A stretch of 64,000 nucleotides of DNA. It comes from Trichosporon coremiiforme (taxonomy: Eukaryota; Basidiomycota; Tremellomycetes; Trichosporonales; Trichosporonaceae). The notes below the pieces were generated by a model. It made no database searches, was not told the DNA's origin, and saw nothing but the letters and a program-made list of their open reading frames with translations. The stretch spans positions 681,008-745,007 of the forward strand of contig BCJJ01000005.1 of the NCBI GenBank assembly GCA_039545355.1, written 5' to 3'. A program made the translations under genes and the position numbers. Positions 2,847 through 56,241 of this stretch are shown in pieces; position 1 is the first letter of the stretch, and every line of letters begins with the position of its first letter.

Positions 2847-5728
2847 TTTCGCCGTAGGCTGATGCAAGTGTGTGTATTTGTGTTGGTGTGTTGTTTGGAA
2901 AAATTACAAGGGCGCGCGCTGGATGTGTCGCTATGCAGTCTGCTGAGCCGTCCAGCGGTCACACGGACGGATTGATTGAGGGTGGATGGATAGAGTAACA
3001 AGTGGTGTTGGTAGTGGCGAACGAAACCTGGGCGGCCCTCGCAGTCTTTGTGAGAAGGACGCGTTAGGAAGACTGATGGGGATCGCGGAGTCGGTTTCAC
3101 GTAGGCCGTAGTCGATACAGTGGTGGGCACAGGCGTCCTGGTGGTTGGGGCGGGGACGGGTGGGCGGTGCGGAGTCGGGCAGAGCAGGGTAGACGGGGTC
3201 GGGATGGATGGGTGGTGTCTAGCAAAAGATGAGGATGGATGTTGGAAGATGGAGTAATGGAGGATGAGGATGACGGATGACGGATGTGGGGGCAGGCGTA
3301 GGGAAGGCAGAAGGGGGGAGGGGTCTAGGAGTATGGGAGGCGGCGTGAGCGTGATCTGATCCTGCACCAGTGTTTGGACGTATTTGACTGAATTACGTAA
3401 CAAAATCAAGATCAAAATCACACACGTCTGAATTTGCGCGCCCTGAGGCCAGAGGGATAACCCCGCACGTGGAACGCTTGCGCCACCTGTGAAGTGCAAA
3501 GCGTAGCGCGTCTTGCGTGCAGTCGGCCAGCGTGTGATTTCTCTTTTGCAGAGCTGCAGACCTGAAGGGTAGGGCGCAGAGTGAATCAATGCGCAATGTG
3601 CCATGAACAGCAGGGGGTGACGGCGGGGACAGTGTGAAGCAATTCCCCACAAAGGCCTGCAGCATTCCACCTTTATTTTCGACCCTCGTTGCCAGTCTCA
3701 TGGCATCATGGCTCCGTTCACCCAGGTCGGCCAGGACCCACTGATCCACCTTGGGATCCTGCACAACCTGGGCAGTGCAACAAGTCTTGTGCTCGCTGCT
3801 CAACTGACCTTGTCTCATCCCAACACAACTCGCATCCACTGTCCCTCATGATCATCGCAGAGCGCCAGCGAATGCAAGTTCGCTGAACGTGAGACGCGGC
3901 GGGGGGATGGCCAGCATTGTCCCGGCTGCTGCTTGAGCATCAGTGGGCAACGCATGTGTCTGCGGGTCTGCAGAGTCGAGAGTAGCATGCCAGGGAGACT
4001 GGTGAATCTTCGGCCCTCGGCCCTTGAGCGCCCTGTTGCCATTTGCCCTGTGGCCCGCTGGGCGTCCTGAGCTTTGCCTGAAGTGAAAAGTAAAGTGCGG
4101 CCGCCAGCGCCAGGAGCAAAAGCAAAAGCAAAAGCATTCGCGACGTCTGCACCCGCTTCCCTCCCGCAGCACTCTCGACTCCACCTGGCCATCCATGATG
4201 CAACCAGCCAACAGCGGGACAGATCGTGCGGCTAGCTATGCGGCTGTTGCGTCGATCTAACTGTTGCTACAGTTTTGGGCACGCTTGATCTCGAGCCAAG
4301 ACACGCGCGGCGCGTTAGCACAGTTGGCGTTATAGCGTGTTTCTGGCCTGTCCCCACCTAAGTGTCATGGCTCAAAGAGCTGAGATGTCCACCGGAACAA
4401 GCTCGAGCGGGGATCAGATGGACGATCGCTCGCACCGAGCACAGTCGTGCGGGCTGCTGACCCCGTGCGCCGGTGTGAGCGTGAGACCGCTCTGTTGCCG
4501 GTGTGTCTGTGCTACTCCGTGGCATCTGTGCTACAGTTACCGAAGCCGGTAGATCTATCGATCTAGCGGTGGATCATGTCCGAAGCTCTACGAACTGTGT
4601 CATGTAGACACTAGTGGGGCAAAATCAGATCCGGTGAATCGCCCCACTGCTGCCACTCACGTCGTGCGCCTGGCCATGGTATGCTGTCTGACTCTTGTCT
4701 CTGAGGACTTATTGTCCGCAAAGCGTGAGCGCAACGACGCGCCTGCTTTCGCGATGACGCCACGGCACGAGAACGCCAATACGCCCGTACGGCGGTGGCA
4801 TGAGCCTCGCATACGCCCTCTGAGCCACGAGAGCCACAATCATGTTCCCACGTCCCTTGCCTGTGCCTTCTCTCATGACTCATAAGGAAGCTCGTAAGAG
4901 GGTCGGGAGGAGGATCCAGCACCGTGCCTCATGTCGTGCCGGCGCATTCCGGAGCAACCAGCGAGGAGTTGGCCGCCCCCTGTCAGAACAACTGGCCAGA
5001 AACGCCCTTGGGTCCCAACTCTAATGCTTCCCTTGTTCCCCGCCCGCCACAAGGACTTTGCAAGGACTCGAGGACTGCGAGCCGCTTCTGGCGCTGGGCG
5101 GACCGGTTGCACGAGGCGCCAGAACAATATGGACCCAGGGAATGAGCCTACCTGGCTGTCGGTCCGTGCGTCGTTACTCTTCGCGACCCGAAGGAGCAGT
5201 GGGTGATTCGCTCGGAATGGTTAGCTGCAGAAGGACTGTCACGCCGAATGTCCCGTAGCTTGTGGGCTATGATCTCCTGGCCGGTCTTCGGCGGGATTTG
5301 GATACTGAACTTGGTTGCGCCTACTTCGCGGATGATCAATCACTAGTTCAGCCCCGTTACTGTCTACCATCATCTCCAGCAGGTAATTAGGCGCTCTCCA
5401 AGAGCTAGACATGGCCAGTTCTCGTCTCAACGGGTGAACTGCCCAACTCCATTGCCCTCGTCTGATGCTGGAAGGAGTCCTGTTGGCTGAAATTGGCTGA
5501 CACGCGGAAGTGTCCCGGCTCTGGCTTGTCAGGGATGTTTTGGTCGTTTTGCTGGAAACCGAACCTTCCATCAATCTTCGGTCGGTACGAGATGAATTAG
5601 GTTGGCTGTTGTAGCCGTATGTCACTAACTCCTGTGCTCTCGGGTGCTGTTGGCTGACTCTGGCCGGAAGACTTTCGTAAGCGTGCCCAGAAGACAGGAT
5701 GGCGCGTGGCGTGTGCCTGCCATCCACA

Positions 5729-5761
<33 letters not shown>

Positions 5762-42970: not shown

Positions 42971-43017
<47 letters not shown>
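42971..43017. repeat. (TG)n microsatellite
   Basis: About 23 uninterrupted TG units in the divergent promoter region between the Zn2Cys6 factor and the enoyl-CoA hydratase/isomerase gene. Confidence 0.95.
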
Positions 43018-51052: not shown

Positions 51053-52285
51053 ATGGTGAGTCCGACGCCATGCTTTGCGTGCACTGCAGACGAAGGCGTG
51101 ATGATGCGCACTCCCCGAAACAAGATGAGAACAACCGCTAACAGCCCAGTCGTCCGGTGTCCAGCCCGTATGTTTGGTCCCTACCCTACACCAAAGGAGA
51201 TGTACTGACGCAGACCAACCCGATACTGCAAACCACGCTTCCCACCCTGCTGAACACGTCTCGCACTGCTAAACGCTCTCGAATCCTGCAACAATGACGT
51301 TTTCATCTCACGCGCTCGCTCACTGACCGCACGACGCTCGCACACAACGTCGCTCTGTCCTCGGCCGCCCCGTGCGCCTGTCAACCCACCCCGCACGCTC
51401 TTCTATCACACCCACTCCCCGGCCGCCCCTACTTGCCACCACGCACAAACACGACCCCAACGACACTATCGGATTCCAACCAACAGGTCCAGGAGTGTCT
51501 CGAGAAGTACCAGGAGCTGAAGCAGGGCAAGAAGCTCGTCTACATCATCTACGGCATCTCGGACGACAAGAAGAGCATTGTCGTCCTCAAGACGTCCGAG
51601 TCGCGTGACTTTGAGGAGTTCGTCGCCGACCTCCCCGAGAAGGAATGCAGGTGGGCTGTTTACGACTTTGAGTACGAGCTCCCTGGCGAGGGTATCCGCA
51701 ACAAGCTCGTCTTCGTGCAGTGGTGAGTACGGCGAGCGTACTGCCGAGCACAACGAGGCAGTGGGCGAGGAGTGCGGTTCGTTTGCGCCGGCCAGCCGGG
51801 TACAGTGACGTCGCACGACCGCGCGAGTCTTCACAAGGCTGCGCGATGCTGCGCAGCCGCTTCTTGTCGGCTCCGATAATGCTGCAGCCGCGCGGCCCCT
51901 GCCAAGGACAACTGCGCTGCTTCCATCGCAGCTGTCTTGCCAGCGAAGCCTCGTGAAGCAGGCGGCAATCGCCTCAGCTGTCTTCCTGAGACGTAGAGCT
52001 AACTCTCAGGTCCCCCGACGAGGCCAACGTCCGCAACAAGATGATCTACGCCTCGTCCAAGGACGCGCTCCACCGCCGCCTCGAAGGCATCCACACCGAC
52101 CTCCAGGCTACCGACTATTCGGAGATCACCAAGGAAGCCAGTAAGTTGAACGTCGACCGAGCAAGCTCGATCGCAACCTCGTCTTTCCCCTGTCTTCGTC
52201 CTCCTTCGGCACTTGACCGCTGAGAAATTGTATGGATCGAACACAGCTGATACACCCAGTCTTCGAGAAGGCCACCCGCAGATAA
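51053..52285 (+). CDS. COF1: Cofilin (ADF/cofilin actin-severing protein)
   Basis: Exons 51053-51055, 51150-51167, 51487-51722, 52010-52140, 52260-52285. The product has 137 residues. It begins [19 protein letters not shown], has the core [34 protein letters not shown] and the actin-binding helix [20 protein letters not shown], and ends FEKATRR. Ser2/Ser3 sit at the regulated N-terminus. Cofilin binds ADP-actin, severs filaments and drives patch turnover. The first exon codes only the ATG and the second only six residues, as in other fungal cofilin genes. Intron 2 (319 nt) and intron 3 (287 nt) are long for this genome. Confidence 0.95.
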
Positions 52286-52633
52286 ATTTAGCCACCACCC
52301 ACACCCAACCCTAACAAGCAGTAGCCAGATGTCCTAGACCGCTTGCTGCGGGCGAGAGCATGCAACAAGTTGATCTGGAGCGCGGCGAGGACCCACGAGC
52401 GTGCGAGGCAAGGTCATCGCATCGCGAGCCAAGCGAGTGGCGCGACTATCTATATGTGCATGCGCTGCGAGTGTCCGAACGAGCAGAACTGCCAGACTGA
52501 CGAGGAGGGATGGAAAGTGAGTGCGCCAGTCCCAGGCGAGGCACCTGCGGTTCGCAGCAGTGCTACCGAGTCTGGACAAAGCAGACTAACTGATGCGACA
52601 CTGACGGACTAATGATCTGAGGGACGGCGCAGC
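52286..52633. other. Convergent spacer cofilin / micro-exon array
   Basis: About 350 bases between the cofilin stop and the putative stop of the minus-strand array gene. No gene seen. Confidence 0.45.
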
Positions 52634-55503
52634 TCAGCGTGCTGTGCCTTGTGAGCCTGTGCCCGACATGCTTCGTGTAGAGTCTGCCTCGTGGATAGTG
52701 CATTGCAAGCTACAGATTATAATCTGCTTCATCGCCCCGAGTTGAGGAGGGAGAGCGATAACTGTCGTTAGCTTCGAGCACTTAACGCAGCTCACAGATC
52801 AAGACTTTGAGCTTTGAGAGCCAGAGGTCAACTGTACATGACGAGGGCTTTCAGCTTACTTCCTCTTGGGGTCTGGGGCAGTCAGCTAAGGCAACGTTCA
52901 GCGAAACTCACAGAGACTGAGGAGGGGGGACTGGCGTCAGCTACGATGGCAGCGATAGCCAGCTCACCGTGTCGACTACAGGGAGGGACTGGGGTCAGCT
53001 TACAACGAACGCTTGGGAGCTTACAGATGCACGTGGGCTGGTTATGTCAGCTATGCCATGGGTCGGGTAGCTCACGCGTACCGAGGGAGTCTGGTGTCAG
53101 CTACTGGAGACGTGCACTAGCTCACCATCTCGACAATGATGTTGGAGCCGAGGACTGTGGTCAGCTCATGGAATAATGGCTTAGCGTACTCGGCCGAGGG
53201 GACTGGGAGTGTCAGCTCTAGCTGCGAGAAGCGTGAAGCTCACACATATGCAAGTCAAGGGACTGGTGTCAGCTGCCAGCATGTCCTGGAGCACAGCTCA
53301 CGCTACTGACTACTGCAATCGTCCAATATTAGCTGGCTGCGGATGTCAGCTCCGAGGGATTCCAGGAGCTCACGCATATGCAAACTGAGGATGTGGGACT
53401 GGTGTGAGCTAGTGTCATTCTTGGAAGTCAAGCTCACACTGCTGACTGGAGCCGATGTGCACGGAGGTGCTGGGGTCAGCTGCAGACGCTCCATGGTTAG
53501 CTTACGAATCTGATGGCTGCGGGGATCAGCTGCAAGGAAGCATCAGCAACGCACTGTAGAGGATATGGAGGGACTGATATAAGCTAGGAACTGTGCAACG
53601 AAGCTTACGAGGTGACTGTAGACGTTGTGCTCCGGATCTGGGGCTAGCTGCGGCGCACACTCTGTAAGTTCAGGAATCTGTTGGCTGAGAGAGTCAGCTA
53701 CAGAGCGAAACATGAAGCTCACTCTGGAGGACATGGAGAAGCTGAAGTTAGCTATGAGCTGCAGCCACAAAACTTACAAGGCGACTGTTCACGAAGAACG
53801 AGGTACTGAGGTCAGCTTCCGGGAGAAGGTTATAGCTTACTCGGCCTAGGAGGCCTTCTGGTATTGTCAGCTGTGGCGACGACCTAGGAGCTCACGCTGG
53901 TCTGAGTTTGTGGCACTGGATTCAGCTAATGTGAGACGCGCGTCAAGCTCACTGTGGTGACTGTGAAGATGGAGGAGCGCTGAAGGTTAACCATGGACAT
54001 CAATCGCCGAGCTCACTGGATCCAGCGGAAGTCTGGTCCCGTCAGCTCTAGCACACGTCCTAAGAGTTCACAGACGTTGAGGTGTGGAACTTGTGTCAGC
54101 TAGTTGCCACATGTATGGAGAGCTCAATGTGGTGCCGTGGATACTGAGGAGAGCTGGGATTAGCTCTGGGCGGCGGCCTGTGAAACTTACTCGGCCCAAA
54201 GAATCGTCTGATACCGTCATATTGGTGCACAGCCTATCAGCTCACAAAAGTTGAGGATGCACTGGAGTCAGCTAACTGTCACACTTGCAGGGAAGCTCAC
54301 TGTAGTGACTGGTAGGTAGAGGAGAGCTTGGGTTAGCTCTGCGTGACGGGCACCACAGCTTACTCGATCCAGGCGGCAGCCTGACACGGTCAGCTGTGGC
54401 ACTGGCCCTGAAAGCCCACGCAAGGATCTTAACAAAGAACCGTTATCAGCTGTACCCCTTCTCCATGGGTCGTGAAGCCTACCGTTGTTTATGTACTCGT
54501 GGAGGGAAGCTGAGATCAGCTACGCTTGAACTCAGTGGTAGCTTCCTGGAATCATCAGGTATCAGTTCTCTGTCACCGCGAGAGGCAAACTTCCTTATCC
54601 ACTGGGAATTGTTGGTATTACTGGGGTCGGCTCTCAAGAAGGTATGCGTAGCTTATTCGTCCTAGAGGACTGAGGTGGTGTCAGCTTTCCGGTGAACAAG
54701 TTGACTCACGTTTGTTCCCTGTGGCACTGCATTGTGGCGGCTCTGCCAGAAGTGACCTGAAAGGAGGTCAGCTTCCAGCGCTTGCTCGCATTTTACTCGC
54801 TGAGGAGCGACTGTTGTCAACTGTCGGCAATTCCTCCATGAAATAGCTTACCCGCTAGAAGCAGCCTCGAGGATGACTGTAGTCTGCTGTCAGGTGAGCC
54901 GTTGCGCAAATGACAGTTGCTGAACTACAAACTACATCCAGCTCTACGGCGCCATCCTGGACTCGTGTCAGCCTGAGCCGACAGTAGCCCCCTCAGATCT
55001 CGTATCGCAGTATGGGATGGGTGGAGTAACGCAGTCCTCCACGTTGCACACTGCCCCGGGTGCCTCCTCTCCTACCGCCACAATGGGTCAGAGGCTTGCG
55101 CCCCTGGCCAGAATGGCAAGACTGTCTGTGAAAAGGATGGGGTAATGCAAGCCCCCACGGCGCAAGGGCTAGGAAAGCATGTGCGAAGAGTTTTAAGGTC
55201 AGGGCCCGCTGCGAAGTACCGCAGACCTCAAGTCGTGAGTGTGTTTGTTCCCGGTTTGGTGCACAGTCGGGATTGGGGCTGACTGAGACTCGACGATGGT
55301 GTGAATCAGCTGGACATGTGGATTAACAACAGCTTACGTTCCCAGTCGAGTTGTTGAGAGCGGGTGGCCAACGGTATTGGTGACTGTTGTTAGCTTGGGA
55401 CAAAAGGTTGCAAGTTATGTAGCTCACCATCTGGCTGAAACCACCAGTGTCGGCTGTTATCAGCTTTCTAACTATCGTGGGTAGCGCGAGAGCTCACGGT
55501 CAT
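52634..55503 (-). CDS. Candidate gene built of micro-exons and 35-48-nt introns
   Basis: On the minus strand, GTGAGCT/GTAAGCT donors are followed 20-30 nt later by AGCTGAC or GCTAAC and, within about 10 nt, by CAG. The best-resolved exons are (high to low): 54364-54380, 54301-54326, 54246-54261, 54191-54207, 54128-54153, 54072-54089, 54017-54032, 53953-53979, 53896-53915, 53841-53857, 53778-53805, 53723-53741, 53661-53677, 53609-53637, 53555-53573, 53506-53516, 53438-53469, 53374-53398, 53302-53309, 53244-53262, 53190-53202, 53126-53154, 53076-53090, 53025-53037, 52968-52988, 52912-52930, 52860-52872, 52796-52811, 52634-52761. Spliced, they give 224 codons without a stop. A possible start is the ATG at 55503 (MTPTLVVSARCHQY over three exons). 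The part at 54381-55337 is not resolved. Three acceptors were chosen to keep the frame, one implied intron is only 23 nt, and a few donors are mutated. The exons are pyrimidine-rich, which lowers stop frequency. A non-coding spliced RNA is a real alternative. No family recognised. Confidence 0.4.
52850..54400 (-). repeat. Diverged tandem repeat, about 172-bp period, three intron cassettes per unit
   Basis: The mid-size exon of each unit (26-32 nt, often with CTCCTC near its start and CAGTCACC near its end) begins on the plus strand at 54301, 54128, 53953, 53778, 53609 and 53438, then 53126 and 52968. The steps are 173, 175, 175, 169, 171 and then about 156. A short exon ending in a GGCCGA-like string (for example 54364, 54191, 53841, 53190) and one resembling TCCCACATCCTCA alternate with it. 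Nine or ten units can be followed. The introns are alike only at their splice signals. Confidence 0.7.
54401..55337 (-). other. Degraded upstream part of the micro-exon array
   Basis: The same signals continue but less regularly. Clear intron-like pieces lie at 54670-54709 (GTGAGT to CTCAG, AGCTGAC), 54757-54796 and 54811-54851. In between, donors have lost the GT (ATAAGCT near 54651). From about 54900 to 55330 the pattern fades. A coding path through this part was not found. Confidence 0.45.
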
Positions 55504-56241
55504 GCTGGGGAGCGCCGTTCTGACTTCGCTCTTGGAGGCAGTGGCAGATTTGCGAGCACTTTCGTCAGCTCACGCGCAGTAATTCCGCAGCTAACACAAT
55601 CTGTGTCATACCTCTCAAGTGTATGGTAGACGCGCCGGAGAGTGGCCGTTGAAGGGTAAGCTTGCAGCTGGCTCTGCGGTGTCAGCAACGAGCGTCCCAT
55701 TCACACGAGGAAGAAAGCAAGCGGTGGACTGGACAGTCAGCTTCGTCCTCACGATTTCTCCAGTTTTGCTTATTGAGTCGATCGAAATTCCAGAGGCTGA
55801 AGGAGGCACACTGCGAATTGATAACAAAATCTAGCGAGAGGAATGGCAAAAGGGATGGTGAAGGGATACGAGGGATCAGTGTAATGACAAGTGATCACAG
55901 AACAGCGAGGAAGACGCGGGAGCGGGCGCAAGCGTGCTTTGCTCAAGGAGGCGATCGGCACAGTCGTTACCACCGCCTGCGCCCCTGCTGCGTCCTGGCT
56001 TGAGTCTCACCACTATTCTGCTCACCTGGATCTCACCAGGCTGCCCATTCAGTTTGAGCTGTCCACTCGCGGCTCCAATCGAGAACTTTCGGGTTCATGC
56101 CATAGTTTTTACAGAATTACCAAGTGATTGTGACACATGCCCTACTTCTCACCTCCTCTTCTTACCCTCCTTCTCCATTGATCCAGACGGGTGGAGAGGC
56201 TGAGTGACACCACAGCGGCATCTCCCCTCCGTATACCTTCA
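55504..56241. other. Region upstream of the array
   Basis: About 740 bases. Intron-like strings occur to about 55750 on the minus strand, so the array transcript may start further upstream than 55503. The remainder is the 3' flank of the chromate transporter gene. No other gene seen. Confidence 0.35.

Follow-up and report, generated by a model that had tools for sequence, protein, structure and literature searches.

The window analysed here is a 64,000-nucleotide stretch (C5:681008-745007 of the 42.0-Mb, 134-contig assembly of Trichosporon coremiiforme), and it contains on its minus strand a long row of predicted mini-introns separated by very short exons (Table 1). The row lies between a convergent cofilin gene, whose Cofilin_ADF domain is encoded by exons at 51298-51723 and 51990-52220 and whose 3' UTR was assigned by eye, and a chromate transporter gene that is read in the same direction as the array. 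The introns are packed most densely in 52.76-54.42 kb and are sparser upstream, with exon ends being uncertain wherever two AGs follow a branch site. The outermost segments of the locus probably represent a 5' end, in which transcription would start, and a terminal exon. Elsewhere in the window CA/TG dinucleotide repeats are found at 5725-5760 and 42971-43017.

Table 1. Features of the array locus and its neighbours, in window coordinates; identities and E values refer to the copy of the region on contig C17
Feature	Position	Strand	Remark
Upstream neighbour in same direction, chromate transporter PF02417	56742..57914	-	outside array gene
Probable promoter / 5' end	55844..56143	-	62% identical in C17 copy (321 aligned columns, E 6e-17)
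Short conserved stretch at first introns	55679..55745	-	69% identical in C17 copy (67 aligned columns, E 9e-6)
Sparser upstream part, 8 introns (cut-off 13)	54670..55704	-	intron model
Upstream-part introns 1-8	55704-55674, 55595-55559, 55497-55454, 55427-55384, 55337-55289, 54935-54887, 54851-54821, 54709-54670	-	introns 1, 5 and 6 score <19
Dense part, 27 introns (cut-off 13)	52762..54419	-	intron model, far above shuffles
Dense-part introns 1-9	54419-54381, 54363-54327, 54300-54262, 54245-54208, 54190-54154, 54071-54033, 54016-53980, 53952-53916, 53895-53858	-	
Dense-part introns 10-18	53840-53806, 53777-53742, 53722-53685, 53608-53574, 53554-53517, 53505-53470, 53437-53399, 53373-53337, 53301-53263	-	
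Dense-part introns 19-27	53243-53203, 53189-53155, 53125-53091, 53075-53038, 53024-52989, 52967-52931, 52911-52873, 52859-52812, 52795-52762	-	
Probable terminal exon	52557..52658	-	72% identical in C17 copy (102 aligned columns, E 1.6e-11)
Convergent cofilin neighbour, gene end and 3' UTR	52244..52401	+	86% over 161 columns in C17 copy; outside array gene

Introns were predicted with a model that combines donor, branch and acceptor matrices with their spacings and was trained on 56 strict introns outside the array; part of this set came from eight loci fetched by motif, and the model thus leans towards GTRAGCT. On the minus strand of 52,400-55,900 it placed 37, 35, 32 and 30 non-overlapping introns at cut-offs of 10, 13, 16 and 19, respectively, compared with means of 7.4, 3.7, 1.7 and ~0.6 in dinucleotide shuffles of the same segment. 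At cut-off 19 the minus strand of 52.42-55.88 kb contains 30 strong introns of 31-44 nt, while the plus strand has four and shuffles average ~0.5; the strong introns are separated by 29 spacers with a median length of 26 nt, 20 of which do not exceed 32 nt. Ordinary 3-kb strand blocks, drawn from the window and the C17 flanks, hold a mean of 1.12 introns and a maximum of six at this cut-off (n=52). The excess of sense over antisense and shuffled counts bears out the claim of the initial annotation that a non-random array of mini-introns and micro-exons occupies this strand. A model retrained at a low cut-off was discarded, having learned the reverse-strand palindrome and called 34 plus-strand ‘introns' in the array, and the fixed strict-intron model was used instead.

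The signals of the array are those of introns throughout the genome, as motif counts and model scores both confirm. The intron core GTRAGCT..AGCTRAC..CAG has 3943 matches in the genome (1,944 and 1,999), compared with eight (2 and 6) for a reversed control, and thus the array speaks the genome's own intron language. Donor, branch and acceptor occur at the genome's own spacing, by which the predicted introns would be of the U2 spliceosomal type. It could be argued that the locus is never spliced but is an array of DNA or RNA hairpins, or the relic of a tandem repeat, that appears intron-like because AGCT is palindromic. Indeed AGCT pairs are regularly spaced within the introns, there are two weak direct repeats, one of 46 nt (74% identity, 651 nt apart) and one of 44 nt (75% identity, 523 nt apart), and antisense intron counts are above shuffles at most array loci, an excess that we attribute to AGCT being its own reverse complement. 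Such a structure, however, would explain neither the strong strand bias nor the presence of acceptors in their place and of signals identical to those of introns genome-wide; second copies, moreover, retain an array although its sequence is no longer similar (see below), and no significant period was detected in six arrays tested (P 0.16-0.81). We thus consider an unspliced array very unlikely. A three-intron unit of ~170 nt, plausible by eye, failed the period test (P 0.37).

The initial annotation had reported that splicing leaves a 224-codon frame, and had suggested a protein gene of a new kind. Frames of such length are, however, given by chance. When splice sites in 52,640-54,440 were chosen freely, independently of the choices behind the 224 codons, the longest frame was 312 codons, compared with a mean of 235 in shuffles that keep the splice signals, and 14 of 100 shuffles reached 312. 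A splice chain chosen regardless of frame contains 6, 3 and 9 stops in its three frames. Across 11 segments of 10 loci the longest frames were not above shuffles, the fraction of shuffles that reached the observed length being 0.12-0.94 with free splicing and 0.08-0.71 with the fixed chain, where the lowest value, 0.08, belongs to both 52,640-55,700 and L020. Codon log-odds, computed for spacers shorter than 80 nt, were negative for 12 arrays whichever frame was read, whereas two held-out control genes gave positive values in their true frame. Coding-like 120-nt windows made up 0% of the array under study as against 97% and 76% of the two held-out genes, and 0-6% across 11 arrays, the highest value being that of L025 (6%, with 1% in its shuffles). 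The longest open stretches of two frames had no Pfam match at E 1, and no listed open reading frame above 120 amino acids lies in 52.4-55.9 kb. A fast-evolving protein gene with some 30 micro-exons might still be read into the open stretches of the fixed chain, which extend to 117 codons in 52,640-54,440 and 177 codons in 52,640-55,700 (a length reached by 8% of shuffles), and which are longer with free splicing. With its stops, frames at the level of chance, codon usage unlike that of genes and lack of domain matches, the locus makes such a gene highly improbable, and the lack of a coding signal is what a long non-coding RNA (lncRNA) gene would show.

The region of the window is duplicated on C17, where the long flanks align at 81-84% and the array interval does not. 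Both the size of the assembly and this duplication fit the natural hybrids of the Trichosporonaceae, for which PMC7026411 lists genome sizes of 42.35 (T. coremiiforme), 40.8 (C. mucoides) and 40.3 Mb (T. ovoides). Within the interval, the cofilin 3' end apart, only the three short segments given in Table 1 align, indicating that the ends of the gene have persisted while its interior has been turned over. The C17 interval carries an array on the same strand, with 14 introns compared with one antisense and 0.1 in shuffles at cut-off 19, a count that leaves out a transposon-bearing span. The initial annotation had held that its proposal would fall if relatives had lost the architecture; when the comparison was made with this second copy in the same genome the architecture was found to be kept.

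The array is not unique, but is one of 16 clusters. When the genome was searched for pairs of adjacent strict introns separated by a short spacer, the pattern gave 226 matches and its control none; a stricter version has 73, again with none in the control, of which 48 fall within the 16 clusters when both subgenomes are counted, and 32 neighbouring pairs of these matches lie at most 5 kb apart where 0.64 would be expected at random. Seven of the clusters consist of two matches only, and the sequence of ten was retrieved; the array loci examined closely contain up to ~50 introns each. These results pertain to one genome and two copies of each locus, most loci having been found through the motif pattern. 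In all five loci tested a second copy with an array on the same strand was present, the numbers of introns at cut-off 19 being 30 and 14 (window/C17), 39 and 10 (L009/C25), 36 and 46 (L025/C22), 29 and 8 (L015/C15) and 38 and 26 (L034/C6). Every one of these arrays has 0-6 antisense introns and a shuffle mean of at most 1.3, the weak copy being C15 with eight sense and two antisense introns. The introns of an array do not resemble each other, as the copies of an introner-like element would, since in seven arrays the identity of intron interiors at lags 1-8 departs from that of shuffles by no more than 0.05; for array exons lag identity is likewise near shuffle level, at most 0.08 above it.

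Several loci have features of their own. At L031 (C112:13501-16823, positions 1999-2359) a run of introns includes six consecutive spacers of zero length, in which CAG is followed directly by GT. This zero-length pattern has six strict matches in the genome, four of which are at this locus (C112:15.5 kb), and a 121-aa open reading frame without a Pfam match above cut-off ends at the first donor; the locus may belong to a coding gene. L033 and L034 (C12:421-446 kb) are two dense arrays on opposite strands, ~16 kb apart, and a tRNA match adjoins the array at L033:1123-1205.

Donor alignments were compared for four of the five copy pairs, L025/C22, window/C17, L034/C6 and L009/C25. In L025/C22 exons and intron interiors both have an identity of 0.51, whereas donors reach 0.70, branches 0.77 and acceptors 0.73; in four control alignments between unrelated arrays identity was 0.40-0.44 for exons and 0.43-0.48 for donors. 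Aligned donors number 23 of 52 in this pair, compared with 2-9 in the unrelated-array controls. For the 3' part of the window and C17 arrays, where the number of aligned donors is 7 of 14 (4 and 2 in controls) and donor identity is 0.73 (0.57 and 0.50 in controls) with branch and acceptor near control values, the data are suggestive of splice-signal retention. L034/C6 shows no excess of aligned donors (8, versus 10, 7, 13 and 13 between unrelated arrays), and in L009/C25 only 3 of 41 donors align, and thus conservation intron by intron is clear in L025/C22 alone. What persists in the tested pairs is the density and the strand of the array; individual introns persist clearly in one.

The initial annotation had also considered a host for intron-derived RNAs. 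Intron interiors are, however, kept no better than exons, clearly so in one pair, and no Rfam family reached its gathering score in the window, where one sub-threshold match (19.1 bits versus a cut-off of 40) lies on the plus strand. The locus thus shows no sign of hosting a known RNA family, but may conceivably host other intron-derived RNAs.

Many array introns contain AGCT at the branch site and a second AGCT ~19-23 nt upstream, mostly within the donor GTRAGCT. As most arrays were found by a pattern that contains these motifs, motif counts in them are biased; in five arrays reached by synteny, and thus not chosen for the AGCT motif, the AGCT...AGCTRAC pair occurs in 71 of 104 introns compared with 14 of 62 ordinary introns (P 1e-8). 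Enrichment is not significant in C15 (4/8) and L020 (8/26). AGCT is usually missing from the donor in L025 and in L029, its copy, and an internal AGCT, mostly CAGCT, is found instead at the same distance before the branch in 26 of 31 and 27 of 35 introns, respectively, where about one would be expected in each; the two copies (C8 and C22) share introns of ~47 nt in which this CAGCT is at a fixed distance before the branch. As a general element the internal AGCT was rejected, its counts having been inflated by false upstream GTs: a cleaner set retained it in 4 of 99 introns of other arrays (0.6 expected) and in 4 of 48 ordinary introns (0.7 expected). The donor GTRAGCT and the branch AGCTRAC are largely complementary, and a small hairpin could form between them; among 150 sampled introns, some of them with false donors, 87 had all four bases of the branch-site AGCT paired upstream in the minimum-energy fold. 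Donor position +6 covaries with the base preceding the branch CT in arrays (P 7e-4; P 0.10 in ordinary introns), and a test for own-reverse-complement sequences in the cleaner introns gave 11 against 7.2 (P 0.08). The two AGCTs may represent either an RNA stem or a protein site.

The full donor-plus-branch consensus is commoner in several arrays (window, 19/30; C17, 10/14; C25, 5/10) than in ordinary introns (11/62). It could be argued that rows of such strong introns constitute a spliceosome sponge, which when transcribed would occupy U1 and U2, compete with the weaker introns of genes and so tune splicing, selection being confined to how many and how strong the introns are and leaving the sequence itself free. 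This proposal is consistent with the consensus counts, with exon sequence that is not conserved and with the many loci. It should be emphasized, however, that, with thousands of introns in genes to compete with, some dozens of loci may not suffice without very strong transcription, and that the consensus is not enriched in L029 (8/46) and is borderline in C15 (4/8, P 0.06). A sponge is a bolder reading than an effect on transcript stability or export, and in our judgement a rather unlikely one.

It is also conceivable that crowded introns stall spliceosomes and, by analogy with Cryptococcus, feed spliceosome-coupled small RNAs, perhaps against transposons that land in arrays. Components of RNA interference are encoded in the genome, with seven Piwi matches, two of which contain stops, at four loci and 16 RdRP matches on five contigs. 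Inside the C17 array lies a transposase gene (L012:6400-8400), whose 364-aa product matches DDE_3 above cut-off and a Tc3-type helix-turn-helix just below it. The L010 and L018 arrays contain or adjoin DNA related to this transposon, and next to the L016 array lies a 95% match to a 258-nt stretch from the C17 interval; this stretch has 12 genome matches of at least 95 nt, itself included, of which two are at known array loci. The trigger in Cryptococcus, however, is reportedly poorly spliced introns, while the introns of several arrays are nearer the consensus than ordinary introns, and are thus strong rather than weak, which argues against a stalled-spliceosome trigger. Furthermore, a genome search with 52,300-56,000 found no match besides the stretch itself and the 3' flank of the C17 copy, and thus the stretch is no store of transposon pieces. 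A source of small RNAs therefore seems quite unlikely.

The explanation that we favour, and regard as probable, is that the locus is a spliced lncRNA gene and belongs to a class of genes on which selection acts through splicing and not through the product. A spliced non-coding RNA was among the suggestions of the initial annotation and fits best; its non-coding part is supported by the tests above, while its splicing is predicted from sequence and its transcription is inferred. The gene would extend on the minus strand from ~56.1 to 52.5 kb, and its precursor would consist mostly of mini-introns that are removed singly, by intron definition, to leave a short RNA. In this gene, as in the other clusters defined by the strict pattern, selection would maintain a row of strong splice signals on one strand, often with the repeated AGCT upstream of the branch, while exon and intron-interior sequence would be free to drift and introns would be gained and lost. 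That both copies keep rows of splice signals while the intervening sequence has drifted suggests that splicing itself matters. The function would then reside in the act of splicing, most simply by yielding a stable and exportable transcript in an intron-dependent lineage, or alternatively by loading or titrating spliceosomes. According to PMC5851062, expression in Cryptococcus usually falls when introns are removed, and introns are presumed to aid export; by analogy this may offer a simple explanation of why introns would accumulate in a non-coding transcript. We put forward more tentatively, as a speculation with a modest chance of being correct, a ‘splicing-only' class of genes, in which selection acts on how many introns there are and how strong they are, and on no RNA or protein product, AGCU...AGCURAC marks, as a stem or dimeric site, a distinct subclass of introns, and the transcript loads, titrates or senses the spliceosome. 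If spliced as predicted, lncRNA genes of this kind would be natural experiments on minimal intron spacing and on intron recognition with almost no exon, in which the effect of splicing can be separated from the value of the product. Their diverged copies permit the comparison of splice signals where other sequence has drifted to noise, and they illustrate that gene finders that require a frame are blind to such genes.

The array shares features with several known systems. The micro-exon genes of schistosomes contain long runs of micro-exons, as does the array, but they are coding, whereas no coding signal was found here. Introners are similar intron copies spread among genes, and fungal stwintrons are internally symmetrical; the multiplication of introns and the symmetry between intron ends recall both, but the array introns, unlike introners, differ from each other internally and sit head to tail. 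The zero-length spacers at C112:15.5 kb are reminiscent of recursive splicing, while the array in the window has spacers. In the titles and opening lines of abstracts found by searches of the open-licence PMC literature no description of such arrays was found. Micro-exons alone are not unheard of, since PMC3990503 describes Cryptococcus exons as short as 1 bp. The same source gives 42 introns for TCO4, an example of an intron-rich fungal protein gene, a number per gene comparable with that of the array, but TCO4 codes for a histidine kinase whereas the array is without coding signal. A further likeness is to the spliced miscRNAs and lncRNAs that PMC3990503 describes in Cryptococcus neoformans, also a Tremellomycete, which are without obvious coding capacity and have ordinary small introns; of its 1,197 miscRNAs 765 are spliced. 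In contrast to these transcripts, which contain 1,434 introns in all, ~30-35 introns are predicted here within a single locus.
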